Shown here one piece after another: positions 34,984 through 44,236 of a stretch of 64,000 nt of DNA. The stretch's first letter is position 1, and each line of letters begins with the position of its first letter. The stretch is from assembly GCF_010119975.1 (NCBI RefSeq), contig NZ_CP048222.1:8284501-8348500 (forward strand), written 5' to 3'. A program made the translations under genes and the position numbers. This stretch comes from Rhodocytophaga rosea (GTDB taxonomy: Bacteria; Bacteroidota; Bacteroidia; Cytophagales; 172606-1). Under the pieces are notes generated by a model. It saw nothing but the letters and a program-made list of their open reading frames with translations, made no database searches and was not told where the DNA came from.

Positions 34984-37413
34984 TTATTCACTTCGTAGGG
35001 ATTCTACCGGGTTGGTATGCGCTGCTTTTACCGCCTGATATAGCACAGTAAGCAAAGCAGTAACTATTGCCATCATACCAGCCAGGATAAACACCCAGGC
35101 ATCAAGGCTGATTTGGTAGGCAAAATCTTCCAGCCAGCGGCTCATCACATACCAGGCAAGCGGCCAGGCGATCAGATTGGCGATTAATACCAGTTTGAGA
35201 AAATCTTTGGAAAGCAAATGTACCACACCCCAGATTGAAGCGCCCAGCACTTTGCGGATGCCGATTTCCTTAGATCGCTGTTCGGTAGTATAGGCAGCTA
35301 AGCCAAACAAACCCAGGCAGGCAATAAATATAGCCAGACTGGTAAACAAAGTAAATATTTGTCCAATCTTCTCTTCAGCCTGGTACTGCTGGTTAATGCG
35401 TTCATCCAGAAATGAATACTCAAAAGGCGCTGAATCTACCTGTTTTTTCCATTGGGCTTCAATAGCCTGCAGGGTTTTTCTTGTCTCTCCTGGCTTTACT
35501 TTTACAGTCATATAATCGCCTTGTTCAGCTAATAATATCAGAAGTGGGGCAATCGGAGAATGCAGTGATTTAAAATTAAAATCTTTTATTACACCAATAA
35601 TTTTGCGGTTATTGCCATCCCGGAGGCTAAGCAGGTGTTTGCCGATAGGATTTTCCCAACCTAACAGTTTGGCAGCTGATTCATTAATCAACATGGCTCC
35701 CTCCTCTTCATCAGCATCGGAAGGAAAATCCCTTGAAAAACTCCGGCCTTCTTTAACATGAATGTTAAGTGTTTGCAGGTAATCATAATCTGCGGTGATA
35801 AACTCAAGTATTTTTTCCTGAGTGCCGGCATCTTCCGGTTCAAATAAATCGCTGTCAATAGCAGCAGACGGTAAGTTGGTAGAATAACTGGCACTTTGCA
35901 CCTGAGGCAATTGTAGCAAGGTTTGTTTAAAAGCGCCCATATTGTTTCCCAGCCGGTCTGTATTGGAGAGTACAAGTACATTTTCCTTATCAAATCCCAT
36001 ATTCACCTGACTTAAATACGTTAACTGTCTGAATACAAACAGGGTACAGATGATCAGGCAAACAGATATGCCAAACTGGAATACAACCAGGGTACTGCGA
36101 ATCAGACTGCTTTTCATACCCATTCTTAGTTTGCCTTTCAATACTTCTACCGGCTTAAATGCGCTTAAGTAAAATGCCGGATAACTGCCTGCGATAATAC
36201 CTACTACAAAAATTAACAGGAGTAAACTTAGCCACAACCAGTTCTGGTTTAACAGATTCGTATCCAGGCCATCAAAAAGGAAATCTTTAAAGAACAAAAG
36301 GAAAATTTCTCCCATCGCTATAGCAAACAGCATCGCAATCAGGCAGGTCACCATAGATTCGGTGAGAAATTGAATAATGAGCTGGCTTTTTACAGAACCC
36401 AGTACTTTTCGTACCCCTACCTCTTTGCTTCGTCCGGCAGAACGGGCTGTAGACAGATTCATGAAATTAACACAAGCCAGCAGCAGGATAAAAAAAGCTA
36501 CACAGGAAAATATATATAAGTACTTAATATCTCCATGGGTACCCAAGCCACTGCCAATTCCGGCCGAGTACAAATGAATTTTTTGGAGCGGCTGCAAGGA
36601 AAGCTCAATAGAATTACCTCCTTTCTGGAAATCTTCAATAGTCGTATTAAACAGACGGCCAATGGTATTACCGGCATGCCGCCTGACCATACCCGGAAAT
36701 TTTGCTTCCAGGTTTTGAGGGTTGGCTCCGTTTTTCAATTGCACATAGGTTGTAAGCGAACAATATACCCAGCTCCAGTCGAAGTTTTTCACTTGTTCTT
36801 CTGAAGAAATAGAGGTAAGCATGTGGAAGGTGAAATGAGAATTATACGGCGGATTTTCTGCGATGCCAGCTACTTTATAAGGAGTACGTGCGTCGCCAAA
36901 ACTCAGGATCTTGCCCATAGGTTCTTGCATTCCGAAATATTTTGCTGCCATTTTCTCCGTAATGATTACCGCATTGGGTTCTGAAAATACTTTAGCGGGA
37001 TTTCCCTTTTTCAACCTGAAACTGAATATTTTAAAGAAATTGGAATCAACTGCAATTACATCAGGCTCCATGAAGGTTTTATCCTGGTAGCGGATCAAAT
37101 TGATACCTTTGGGTTGTATCCTGGTGGCTAACTCTACTTCCGGAAATTCATTTATCAGTGTTTTTGCCACTGGCGGCGGAGTAGCTCCAATATGGTACGC
37201 ATCTGAATCTGCTGATAATTTGCCTTTGTAATTTACCCGGTAAATGCGGTCTGCATTCTGGTGAAAGGCGTCAAAATCCAGATGCTCCATCACAAACAGG
37301 ATAATGAGCACACAACTGGCCAGTCCGATGGATAAACCCAGGATGTTGATCAGGGTATAGATTTTTTGTTTCCGCAGGTTGCGCAGGGCAATTTTCAGGT
37401 AATGGATCAGCAT
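34984..37413 (-). CDS. FtsX/MacB-type ABC transporter permease
   Basis: The 809-residue protein has two copies of an FtsX membrane domain and MacB periplasmic core. The first core spans about 20-260 after an initial helix (about 21-41), with three helices at about 285-410. A second core lies at about 440-665 and the last helices at 680-800, ending in the family hallmark KEIGIRKVLGAS and NPVESLRSE. Such Bacteroidetes permeases act in export or mechanotransmission of lipoproteins, peptides or drugs. No ATPase gene is adjacent. A sigma-54-type promoter upstream and the divergent NtrC-type pair suggest control by that system. Confidence 0.88.
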   Translation of the reverse strand: MLIHYLKIALRNLRKQKIYTLINILGLSIGLASCVLIILFVMEHLDFDAFHQNADRIYRVNYKGKLSADSDAYHIGATPPPVAKTLINEFPEVELATRIQPKGINLIRYQDKTFMEPDVIAVDSNFFKIFSFRLKKGNPAKVFSEPNAVIITEKMAAKYFGMQEPMGKILSFGDARTPYKVAGIAENPPYNSHFTFHMLTSISSEEQVKNFDWSWVYCSLTTYVQLKNGANPQNLEAKFPGMVRRHAGNTIGRLFNTTIEDFQKGGNSIELSLQPLQKIHLYSAGIGSGLGTHGDIKYLYIFSCVAFFILLLACVNFMNLSTARSAGRSKEVGVRKVLGSVKSQLIIQFLTESMVTCLIAMLFAIAMGEIFLLFFKDFLFDGLDTNLLNQNWLWLSLLLLIFVVGIIAGSYPAFYLSAFKPVEVLKGKLRMGMKSSLIRSTLVVFQFGISVCLIICTLFVFRQLTYLSQVNMGFDKENVLVLSNTDRLGNNMGAFKQTLLQLPQVQSASYSTNLPSAAIDSDLFEPEDAGTQEKILEFITADYDYLQTLNIHVKEGRSFSRDFPSDADEEEGAMLINESAAKLLGWENPIGKHLLSLRDGNNRKIIGVIKDFNFKSLHSPIAPLLILLAEQGDYMTVKVKPGETRKTLQAIEAQWKKQVDSAPFEYSFLDERINQQYQAEEKIGQIFTLFTSLAIFIACLGLFGLAAYTTEQRSKEIGIRKVLGASIWGVVHLLSKDFLKLVLIANLIAWPLAWYVMSRWLEDFAYQISLDAWVFILAGMMAIVTALLTVLYQAVKAAHTNPVESLRSE

Positions 37414-37484
37414 AGGAATAATAGGTTAACTATAAGTAGTTGATAGCTTTAATCAAAATAAAGCTTTTATTTGATACCTATAAA

Positions 37485-37500
37485 GACAAACACAATGCCA
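37485..37500 (-). promoter_or_regulatory. sigma-54-type promoter of the FtsX permease
   Basis: Minus strand TGGCAT-TGTGT-TTGT: TGGCA and TTG at the fixed -24/-12 spacing, with the last C of the consensus TTGC replaced by T. It lies 72-87 bp upstream of the permease ATG at 37413. Confidence 0.55.
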
Positions 37501-37563
37501 TCAAGTTAACTATCTAAATATCAAATAATTAACTTTTATTTTTATAATTCTTTATTCAGTATG

Positions 37564-37581
37564 TGTAACGGTTTCGTTACA
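37564..37581. promoter_or_regulatory. palindromic enhancer candidate for the NtrC-type regulator
   Basis: TGTAACGGTTTCGTTACA is a perfect 7-4-7 palindrome, about 65-95 bp upstream of the sigma-54-type promoter. A further half-site CGTTACA follows at about 37599. Distance and symmetry are typical of an NtrC-family upstream activating site. Confidence 0.5.
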
Positions 37582-37659
37582 TTGCTCTAGTTATTTCCGT
37601 TACAGTTTTCTAACTTACCAGCTACAGATTCTATAAGACTTTTGTACTGTTTTTAACCT

Positions 37660-38181
37660 ATGAAATCAACTTTTGGAGGGGAATATATCTGGTATCTGAT
37701 CTTAAGATATGTATTAGGTTTGATCATGGTCATGTATGGGCTGATTAAAATCTTAGGCATACAATTTCCTACAACACGTCAATATACCAATTCCTTAAAT
37801 GATGTCGACGGTGTTACACTCACATGGGCTTTTTTAGGCTATTCGACCTGGTTTGTCATTTTATTGGGTCTGTTTGAGCTGGTTCCGGCGGTATTATTAC
37901 TTTTCAGGAAAACAAAGCTGGTAGGAGCTATTCTTCTTTTCCCGGTGCTGCTCAATGTTTTTTTAATTAATAATGCCTATGGTTTCTATATGTATATGCG
38001 TGTGTTCACCGGCGTTCTTTTAGCCATAGATCTGATATTAATTCTAGTCCATTACAAGCTGTTTATCAGATTCTTCAAAGAATTGATACACTATCCACAC
38101 ACTACCAAATGGCCTGAAATAGTCATTAATTGTACGATTGTAGGTGTGATTACCTTATTAATTTTTTATTATCTTAAATAA
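37660..38181 (+). CDS. DoxX-like membrane protein
   Basis: The 173-residue protein has four to five membrane helices (about 10-32, 55-78, 85-105, 110-130, 150-172), and the DoxX-like pattern GLIKILGIQFPTT with a following acidic loop. Function is unknown in this branch. It lies 19 bp before the response regulator gene on the same strand, so it is probably part of that operon and may be a sensory or target membrane partner. Confidence 0.72.
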   Translation: MKSTFGGEYIWYLILRYVLGLIMVMYGLIKILGIQFPTTRQYTNSLNDVDGVTLTWAFLGYSTWFVILLGLFELVPAVLLLFRKTKLVGAILLFPVLLNVFLINNAYGFYMYMRVFTGVLLAIDLILILVHYKLFIRFFKELIHYPHTTKWPEIVINCTIVGVITLLIFYYLK

Positions 38182-38200: not shown

Positions 38201-39574
38201 ATGCGCATACTTGAAGGAAACATATTGATTGTAGACGATGATCCGGATATACTAGGTACTGCCAGAATGTTTCTCAAACAACATGGATTTACTGTTCAGA
38301 CCGAGCAAAAGCCATCCAATATACCAGCTTTGCTTAGTAAAACTATTTTTGATGTGATCCTGCTCGACATGAATTTTAGCAGAGGAGAAAATAATGGAAA
38401 AGAAGGCCTGTACTGGCTGCAGCAAATTTTACAAACAGACACCCATGCGATTGTCATTCTGATCACTGCCTATGGAGAGGTAGATCTTGCCGTACAAGCC
38501 ATTAAACTGGGTGCTACTGATTTTGTGCTTAAACCCTGGAATAACGAAAAACTACTGGCTACTCTACTTTCTGCGCTACAACTGCGGGCATCCAAACTGG
38601 AAGTAGAAAAATTGCGCAATACCCAGCAAAAGCTTAGCGCTGACATTCAACAACAATATGGCGAGTTGATCGGCAGTTCTCCGGCCATGCAGGAAGTATA
38701 TTCGCTGATAGAAAAAGTGGCTCCTACCGATGCCAATGTGCTGATCCTGGGTGAAAATGGTACTGGCAAGGAGCTGGTAGCCAGAGCGCTGCATACCCGT
38801 TCCCTGAGAAGTAAAGAAGTGTTTATCAGCGTAGACCTGGGTGCAATCAGTGAGACATTGTTTGAGAGTGAACTATTTGGCCATGTGAAAGGTGCCTTTA
38901 CTGATGCCAGAGAAGATAAACCTGGACGTTTTGAACTGGCTTCCGGCGGAACCATTTTTCTGGATGAAATTGGAAATTTATCTCCGAATTTACAAGCCAA
39001 ACTGCTTACTGTATTACAAAGCCGGAAAGTTCGGCGGCTGGGTTCGGTGCATGAAAAAAACATCAATATCCGCCTGATATGTGCTACCAATATGCCTCTG
39101 CATGAGATGGTTCAGGAAAACACCTTCCGGCAAGACCTGTTGTATAGGATCAATACCGTAGAAATTAGGGTACCAGCCTTGCGGGAAAGAAAAGAAGACA
39201 TTCCTTCATTGCTAACCCATTTTATGCAGGTATATACCAGAAAATATAAAAAACCACCTATTCGCCTAGAACCATCTGTGCTCAGCCGTTTAAAAAAGTA
39301 TGAATGGCCAGGAAATATTCGCGAGTTACAGCATGCCGTAGAAAGAGCAGTGATTTTAAGTGAACATCCGGTGATTTCTTCTGCTGAATTATTTCTTCAA
39401 AAGCAAAGCCTGCCTGCTAAAAACGCCGGACGAACCTTGTCGCTGGAGGAAGTGGAACGGAATTACCTGAAAGAACTGATTGAGAAAAATGAAGGCAACA
39501 TTTCGAAAGTGGCCAAAGAATTAGGCATGACCAGGCCGGCCTTATACAGAAGAATCAATAAATATGGTTTATAA
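38201..39574 (+). CDS. NtrC-family sigma-54-dependent response regulator
   Basis: The 457-residue protein has a receiver domain (1-125; D12-D14, phospho-acceptor D56, K111 in VLKPWN). A sigma-54 activator AAA+ domain follows (about 150-385; Walker A GENGTGKE 184-191, Walker B TIFLDE near 251-256, R-finger region WPGNIREL). A Fis-type HTH ends it (about 410-455: VAKELGMTRPALYRRINK). The sigma-54-contacting loop reads GAFTDA (231-236) instead of GAFTGA. It overlaps the histidine kinase gene by 11 bp. The likely target is the divergent FtsX permease. Confidence 0.92.
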   Translation: MRILEGNILIVDDDPDILGTARMFLKQHGFTVQTEQKPSNIPALLSKTIFDVILLDMNFSRGENNGKEGLYWLQQILQTDTHAIVILITAYGEVDLAVQAIKLGATDFVLKPWNNEKLLATLLSALQLRASKLEVEKLRNTQQKLSADIQQQYGELIGSSPAMQEVYSLIEKVAPTDANVLILGENGTGKELVARALHTRSLRSKEVFISVDLGAISETLFESELFGHVKGAFTDAREDKPGRFELASGGTIFLDEIGNLSPNLQAKLLTVLQSRKVRRLGSVHEKNINIRLICATNMPLHEMVQENTFRQDLLYRINTVEIRVPALRERKEDIPSLLTHFMQVYTRKYKKPPIRLEPSVLSRLKKYEWPGNIRELQHAVERAVILSEHPVISSAELFLQKQSLPAKNAGRTLSLEEVERNYLKELIEKNEGNISKVAKELGMTRPALYRRINKYGL

Positions 39575-43504: not shown

Positions 43505-44236
43505 CTAGTTAGCGTTTTCCACTTTGCCGGAGCCTGAAACATTTACTTCTACACTAGGACTGCCTTTATAACGCACTTTACCGGAACCTGTGATCTTAGC
43601 TTTTAACCGGTCGGTTACATATACTTCCGCATTGCCAGAGCCTGTGATTTCCATATCTGCATTGGTAGTGATCAACTCATAGGCTTTTATTTTGCCGGAA
43701 CCACTGATATTGGCCTGATGCCTGGTTACTTTCCCATTCAGATATAAGTCGCCGGAACCGGAAATATCCGTATCGATGCTGTTGGCACCTTTTACTCCAA
43801 AATCTATTTTGCCAGAACCAGATACATTTAAGTCCAGGTCAACCACTTCAAAATCATCGGCACCCCGGATAGAACCCGAACCGGCTACTTTTAGAGAAGT
43901 AATATCCGGAACTGTGATATAAATCTTAATATCATTGTGTCTTCTCACATGGCGACCGCCAAAATCAATTTCCAGCTTGCCATTTTTTACATCCGTTTCC
44001 AGAGCAGAGAGAATATTTTGCTGAGCCTCAACTACAACTTCCTGTTCTTCTCCTTGCTGAAGAATTACTTCTGCATCTACTTCAAGCTCAATCCGGTCAA
44101 AATCGGATATTTCCCGGTTTTCAGACACGGTTGGACCTTCGCCGCGGATGCCGAAAAGGTCATCGTCGTGGCAGGCGGGTAAAATAAATAAGCTAGCTAA
44201 TAAAAATAATAATGCCCTGTTTTTAATAGTTTTCAT
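43505..44236 (-). CDS. GIN-domain (DUF2807) lipoprotein
   Basis: The 243-residue protein has a lipobox (LPAC near residue 22). It is a right-handed beta-helix of the DUF2807/'putative auto-transporter adhesin' family, marked by at least six 'SGSG' turns (VAGSGSI, VSGSGKI, ISGSGDL, ISGSGKI, ITGSGNA, ITGSGKV, VSGSGKV). The domain binds unknown ligands at the cell surface. It is downstream of the TonB receptor on the same strand (113 bp) and probably belongs to the same unit. Confidence 0.85.
   Translation of the reverse strand: MKTIKNRALLFLLASLFILPACHDDDLFGIRGEGPTVSENREISDFDRIELEVDAEVILQQGEEQEVVVEAQQNILSALETDVKNGKLEIDFGGRHVRRHNDIKIYITVPDITSLKVAGSGSIRGADDFEVVDLDLNVSGSGKIDFGVKGANSIDTDISGSGDLYLNGKVTRHQANISGSGKIKAYELITTNADMEITGSGNAEVYVTDRLKAKITGSGKVRYKGSPSVEVNVSGSGKVENAN

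Follow-up and report, generated by a model that had tools for sequence, protein, structure and literature searches.

The locus analysed here raises the question of which gene is switched, and through which bases, by an NtrC-type response regulator that is encoded together with a histidine kinase on one side of an intergenic region, with an FtsX-type permease encoded divergently on the other. The locus lies within a 64,000-nucleotide stretch of the genome of Rhodocytophaga rosea (contig NZ_CP048222.1), which we call the window, and its features are collected in Table 1. An initial annotation had read the locus as a permease facing a DoxX-like protein, an NtrC-type regulator and a kinase, and domain matches bore out this gene content throughout. 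The regulator has the architecture of the NtrC family (Response_reg, 73.4 bits; Sigma54_activat, 225.5 bits; HTH_8, 52.1 bits). The permease contains two stretches each of MacB_PCD and FtsX in a Pfam profile search, and its best solved relatives by sequence are MacB structures. From the comparisons described below, we consider with a probability of roughly 85% that the intergenic region is the sigma-54 control region of the divergent permease, which would be operated by the kinase and the NtrC-type regulator via two tandem dyads.

Table 1. Features of the permease-regulator locus, in window coordinates.
Feature	Position	Strand	Basis or remark
FtsX/MacB-type duplicated permease, 809 aa, predicted target	34984..37413	-	ORF and profile matches
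Sigma-54-type -24/-12 element TGGCATTGTGTTTGT	37486..37500	-	Sequence; kept in the L066 and L048 loci, and as a class across related loci
Dyad 1, TGTAACG-N4-CGTTACA (TGTAACGGTTTCGTTACA), predicted regulator site	37564..37581	.	63 bases from the promoter element
Dyad 2 (CTAGTTATTTCCGTTACA), right half CGTTACA alone a good match	37587..37604	.	Right half 37598-37604, exactly 23 bp past that of dyad 1
TAACTTA, a weak candidate for the -7 element of the DoxX-regulator-kinase operon	37611..37617	+	TACCTTG at the matching place in L066 and L048
DoxX-like membrane protein	37660..38181	+	Between sites and regulator; Pfam match
NtrC-type response regulator with Fis-type HTH	38201..39574	+	ORF and profile matches; loop GAFTDA
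Sensor histidine kinase with PAS and ATPase domains; two predicted transmembrane segments joined by a 5-residue loop	39564..40928	+	ORF, profiles and hydropathy

The genes themselves allow some narrowing of the question. The DoxX-like protein scored 26.6 bits against a cut-off of 23.6, and DoxX gave no match in any of the 103 other regulator loci searched, so that it is probably no core part of the system. No ATPase gene was found among the four genes of the locus, as judged from the ORF list and the Pfam domains. Duplicated orphan permeases of the ADOP family (TIGR03434) combine duplicated MacB_PCD and FtsX regions with the lack of an adjacent ATPase and with many copies per genome. The window permease resembles them in being duplicated, in having no adjacent ATPase and in its 80 matches within its own genome (some of them fragments), but it differs in scoring 323 bits against TIGR03434, under the family cut-off of 622.3. 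The permease expansion includes many tandem clusters, for instance at 7048726-7090644 and 5439685-5471616 of the main contig (G000:C1). As for the regulator and kinase, their description as an otherwise orphan system did not survive the comparison with other genomes, since the pair belongs to a family that is widespread in Bacteroidota and is mostly encoded divergently from MacB/FtsX-type permeases.

The promoter of the permease had been predicted from the pattern TGGCAT-N5-TTGT, and both the pattern and its direction stood, although the interval originally given (37485-37500) was one base too long and begins in fact at 37486. The position of this element places the presumed start of the permease transcript near 37474. 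The match by itself is within chance: TGGCAYN5TTGY occurs twice in the window, where 0.88 occurrences would be expected, and two or more matches turned up in 20 of 100 shuffled sequences. The case for this predicted promoter is made by conservation rather than by the lone motif match. Its core reads GG-N10-GT, with a final T where the consensus, a -24 GG and a -12 GC with 10 bases between them, has C; the same core is found in the R. aerolata locus (L066) and in L048, and either GG-N10-GG or GG-N10-GT in L067-L072. The genome contains one RpoN gene. Three strict sigma-54 patterns gave 20, 17 and 23 matches in it, versus 13, 15 and 7 for the respective reversed-pattern controls, and the third pattern, alone clearly above its control, was picked after the sites of the relatives had been seen. 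By-eye comparison of coordinates found no strict site just upstream of any other permease among the 80 matches in the genome. One sequence, TGGCACTGCCATTGC, occurs four times within 3 kb (G000:C1:8710609-8713590), probably as repetitive coding sequence and not as promoters.

The second element is the palindrome TGTAACG-N4-CGTTACA, a perfect dyad whose coordinates had been given exactly. It is present as a single copy in the 8,983,451 bases of the genome, where no copy with one mismatch was found; up to two mismatches, it matches 15 places (14 of them with two mismatches) versus 33 for the reversed-pattern control, hence no excess. The initial annotation had placed the palindrome at enhancer distance from the promoter, and this part held, but it had described a single site and missed a second dyad. 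The left half of this second dyad is poor and the dyad as a whole scores 8 of 13. The double half-site CGTTACA-N16-CGTTACA occurs exactly once in the genome, with one further place at one mismatch. NtrC-type enhancers consist of paired dyads some 80-150 bp upstream of the transcript start, and the two dyads, with centres that would lie about 98 and about 121 bp upstream of the presumed permease start, fall within this range. On the other side of the dyads, the possible -7 element listed in Table 1 may be compared with the Bacteroidota consensus TAnnTTTG. A wider regulon of the regulator within this genome was considered and dropped, as near-matches to the palindrome showed no excess over the control and the exact double half-site is found at a single place.

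The scan of relatives for the motif, which had been proposed as a check of the initial annotation, gave a positive result. Here G000 denotes the own 9.0 Mb genome, G001 a genome of the same genus, and L048 a locus in the genome G023, from another family of the same order. The R. aerolata locus carries the promoter TGGCATTGCCTTTGT and the dyad TGTAACAGTTCCGTTACA with 64 bases between them, and L048 carries the promoter TGGCATTCGCTTTGT and a dyad identical to that of the window (TGTAACGGTTTCGTTACA), 63 bases apart as in the window. A second CGTTACA ends exactly 23 bp further on in all three loci. The half-site takes the form CGATACA or TGATACA in Chryseolinea, Ohtaekwangia, Dawidia and a Chitinophaga MAG, where it is also repeated at 23 bp. 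The TGTAACG-type core itself is local to a few loci: with up to three mismatches it was found upstream of the regulator in the window, L066, L048, L067, L068, L069 and L072, and did not turn up in the 22 other loci compared, among which the sites of L070 and L071 were masked by a wrong ORF start. Across 59 genomes (own and relatives), the double half-site in the form CGWTACA gave 10 matches, three of which are the present locus in G000, G001 and G023.

We therefore asked how far the layout, rather than the sequence of the half-sites, extends. The 400 bp upstream of 93 related regulators (sample A: the window, 79 of the 80 named loci, L048, L013-L015 and nine loci picked for a visible divergent permease) were scanned blindly for two elements, each searched for independently: the best-scoring sigma-54-like site facing away from the regulator, by a matrix that was written from the sigma-54 consensus after the first sites had been seen, and the best-scoring pair of TGT...ACA dyads spaced by 20-25 bp; L116 was left out, having only 72 bp of upstream sequence. 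The gap between promoter and dyad was 62-65 bp in 60 of the 93 regions and 51-53 bp in four. Dinucleotide shuffles of the same sample gave on average 0.97 of 93 at 62-65 bp, with a maximum of four in 30 rounds, and 19 of 2,790 shuffled rows at 51-53 bp; the upstream regions of other ORFs gave a gap of 62-65 bp in 4 of 463 cases. In the window, the blind scan gave dyad 1 a wrong partner (gap 40), and the true pair comes from inspection and from a guided second pass, which added nine loci to sample A, the window among them, that are not counted as blind. After the guided pass, the layout is present in 57 of the 59 named loci with an opposite-strand upstream permease, versus 4 of the 20 without (Fisher p 3e-11, relatedness ignored), where such a permease may lie anywhere within up to 8 kb and so is not always in the first operon.

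Some relatives clearly depart from the 63 bp rule. Support was weaker in sample B, which comprised 44 loci (18 from the set that had given the nine of sample A and 26 from another set; L005, L006, L146 and L147 were omitted as repeats) and was by choice depleted of visible divergent permeases: the layout was found in 12 of them, four at 62-65 bp and eight at 51-53 bp. In nine further loci, L052 fitted at 64 bp and is the sole one with a divergent permease, L064 had a gap of 54 bp, and seven gave no fit (four more loci had no regulator, two were too short, L022 was not included, and L047, L048, L050 and L061 are places already counted). Among the other regulator loci of the own genome, L013 fits with a gap of 63 bp and a weak promoter score (7.4), L014 has two dyads and no promoter scoring at least 6 at either spacing, and L015 and L016 fit nothing. 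When samples A and B are pooled, 69 of 137 rows pass the thresholds for both elements: 55 of these have gaps of 62-65 bp, five of 52-53 bp, one each of 32, 40 (the mis-picked window) and 41 bp, and six lie outside 20-110 bp. This distribution suggests gaps in steps of whole helical turns. An exact helical period is not claimed, because one gap peak dominates and periods of 10 to 11.5 fit about equally. The spacing between the right ends of the two dyads is 21 bp in Chryseobacterium-type, 22 bp in Aquimarina-type and 23 bp in Rhodocytophaga/Chryseolinea-type loci. Sigma-54 enhancers are usually described as distance-tolerant, so that one would not expect a near-fixed gap of 63 bp in many loci from several orders.

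A constant gap could also be a relic of common descent of one intergenic region, kept under no functional constraint. The loci are indeed homologous, and the largest clusters (24 Chryseobacterium-type and 22 Aquimarina-type loci) make the counts non-independent. Nevertheless, we regard this explanation as unlikely, for four reasons: (i) the regulators of the named loci diverge down to 48% identity to the query, while the sequence and length of the dyads (16-18 bp) have changed and the distance from dyad 1 to the regulator start varies from 48 to 258 bp among the loci that fit in the blind scan; (ii) when regulators are clustered at 70% identity, 15 of 25 clusters still have a member at 62-65 bp, and 2 of 25 one at 51-53 bp; (iii) at 60% identity the corresponding figures are 8 and 1 of 13; and (iv) several exceptions lie about one helical turn nearer, at 51-53 bp, as seen in both samples. 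Two of the loci, L086 and L088, are on contigs titled Beijerinckiaceae and Pseudomonadales, with regulators 55 and 54% identical, and may represent mis-binned contigs or transfer; L086 shows the layout at a gap of 64 bp.

The identity of the divergent gene supports the permease as the target of the regulator and the sigma-54 region, as had been proposed and as the gaps given above for close and distant relatives also argue. An opposite-strand upstream permease is present in 59 of 79 named loci, and the order regulator then kinase is kept in 78 of 80. In L066, L067, L068, L073 and L013, the permease comes first among the ORFs on the divergent side. Three loci, L014 of the own genome, L097 of Aquimarina and L127 of Chryseobacterium, encode an HlyD-type adaptor divergently, beside an ABC ATPase in L014 and L127 and an outer-membrane efflux protein in L097 and L127; a MacB/FtsX-type permease is also present in all three, identified in L097 and L127 by phmmer match only. 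These MacB-type pump parts in the sister loci make a response to envelope stress or toxic compounds the most likely role, by analogy, for the window system. The exception is G023, where the control region (L048 688-728) faces no permease but an ORF of the beta-lactamase family (L048:1-569, minus strand; PF00144, 121 bits) that runs off the contig start, which indicates that the control region is tied more strictly to the regulator than to the permease. This exception leaves the odds for the window unchanged, since the promoter there faces the permease, as in R. aerolata.

How might these elements work together? In the reading that we prefer, the kinase, which has no periplasmic sensor domain, would phosphorylate the NtrC-type regulator; this would bind the two tandem dyads, its AAA+ ring would assemble on them and open the RNA polymerase-sigma-54 complex at TGGCATTGTGTTTGT, and the permease would be transcribed. 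As dyad 2 lies beside the start of the regulator's own operon, this operon too is probably repressed or tuned by the regulator once it is activated. A well-known parallel is glnAp2 of E. coli, where phosphorylated NtrC on two upstream dyads activates a sigma-54 promoter and the own operon is autoregulated. The proposed system would share the NtrC-type regulator on two upstream dyads, the sigma-54 promoter and the autoregulation. It differs in its predicted target, an FtsX/MacB permease instead of nitrogen assimilation, and in its geometry: the glnAp2 dyads have centres about 32 bp apart and are tolerant of distance, whereas the dyads here are 21-23 bp apart and keep a near-constant gap of 63 bp to the promoter in many loci.

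The same proximity of dyad 2 leaves room for a different division of labour, in which the dyads bind the regulator and chiefly control the operon of DoxX, regulator and kinase, itself read from a housekeeping promoter, and in which the site resembling a sigma-54 promoter is incidental. Dyad 2 adjoins the regulator-side start in close relatives and ends eight bases before the start codon in L150-L154; moreover, L074, L077 and L078 have good paired dyads with neither a divergent sigma-54 site nor a permease in the stretch examined, and are perhaps purely self-regulating. Against these cases stands the orientation of the conserved sigma-54-like site, whose best score reaches at least 11 facing away from the regulator in 56 of 93 regions versus 3 of 93 facing toward it, together with its near-constant gap to the dyads. 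Thus we hold it quite improbable that self-control is the chief function, and retain activation of the permease as the preferred reading.

That the dyads are read by the neighbouring regulator fits the correspondence between its recognition helix and the half-site, which was compared in the 65 loci with the layout: RPALY goes with TGTAAC in 3 of 3 loci, RTALY with TGTATC in 4 of 6, RQTLY with TGTAAA in 19 of 21, RAALY with TGTTC in at least 22 of 27, and RLALY with CGTTTG...AATACA in 4 of 4, common descent explaining part of this match. We give very little credence to the palindrome serving another DNA-binding protein, since the half-site tracks the recognition helix across subgroups (confounded by ancestry), or being a terminator hairpin, a version rejected because the palindrome separates two divergent starts and no T-run follows it. 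The activator loop of the regulator deserves comment. The GAFTGA loop has been called invariant (PMC12316311), and the window regulator has GAFTDA instead. The 137 regulators comprise 117 with GAFTDA, three with GAYTDA, one with GAFTGA and 16 without a match to the search expression. This lowers only a little the likelihood that the regulator works through sigma-54, because sigma-54-like sites are conserved beside such genes.

With respect to the signal, the build of the kinase is suggestive. By hydropathy only, the 94 kinase ORFs in the loci compared (one place represented twice, L047 being L066) include 80 with two transmembrane segments, 11 with one and three with three, and in all 80 the loop between the two segments is 0-19 residues long. 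The Bce modules (BceRSAB) combine the gene of an intramembrane-sensing kinase with that of an ABC permease bearing a large extracytoplasmic part (PMC3023708, PMC10314905). The present locus likewise has an FtsX-type permease gene beside that of a kinase whose two transmembrane segments enclose no outer domain, and by analogy the kinase might sense in the Bce manner. It differs from the Bce modules in an NtrC-type regulator that would use sigma-54, in the absence of an ATPase gene from the locus, for which reason we do not file it as a Bce member, and in its Gram-negative host. It is possible, if rather doubtful, that the Bacteroidota module is a Gram-negative sigma-54 counterpart of Bce, in which a kinase devoid of an outer domain reads the state of a MacB/FtsX permease and switches the expression of that permease via a rigid enhancer, whose two dyads are 21-23 bp apart and stand about 63 bp from the promoter or one helical turn closer to it; in Rhodocytophaga such a module would be reduced to the permease alone, which would serve as the sensor or borrow an ATPase encoded elsewhere.

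A statistical link between sigma-54 and this permease family is already known: sigma-54 promoters are enriched before FtsX-like permeases (COG0577) in Bacteroidia, which was called first evidence (PMC12316311). The part of that report available to us names no cognate regulator, binding sites or spacing, all of which are proposed here, and we found none described for such systems in the titles and beginnings of abstracts of the open-licence PMC literature, within which the regulator, its paired sites and their spacing appear to be new. A guess about one locus has thus become a testable rule for a large and little-studied group of regulators, stating which gene is switched, which bases are read and at what distance. 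In addition, since kinases with short loops are found beside MacB/FtsX permeases, one may ask whether Gram-negative Bacteroidota sense through the permease.

Two further observations concern the genes downstream. The 412-aa ORF at window positions 42156-43394 matches Pfam only through a cytidylyltransferase-like domain at residues 272-395, and may, its start codon being uncertain, encode a CoaD-like protein fused to a further domain. Not far from the regulator locus, at 43505-44236, the window encodes a DUF2807 (head GIN) protein, and another is found beside the pump genes of the Aquimarina locus (L097:3678-4430), possibly by coincidence.
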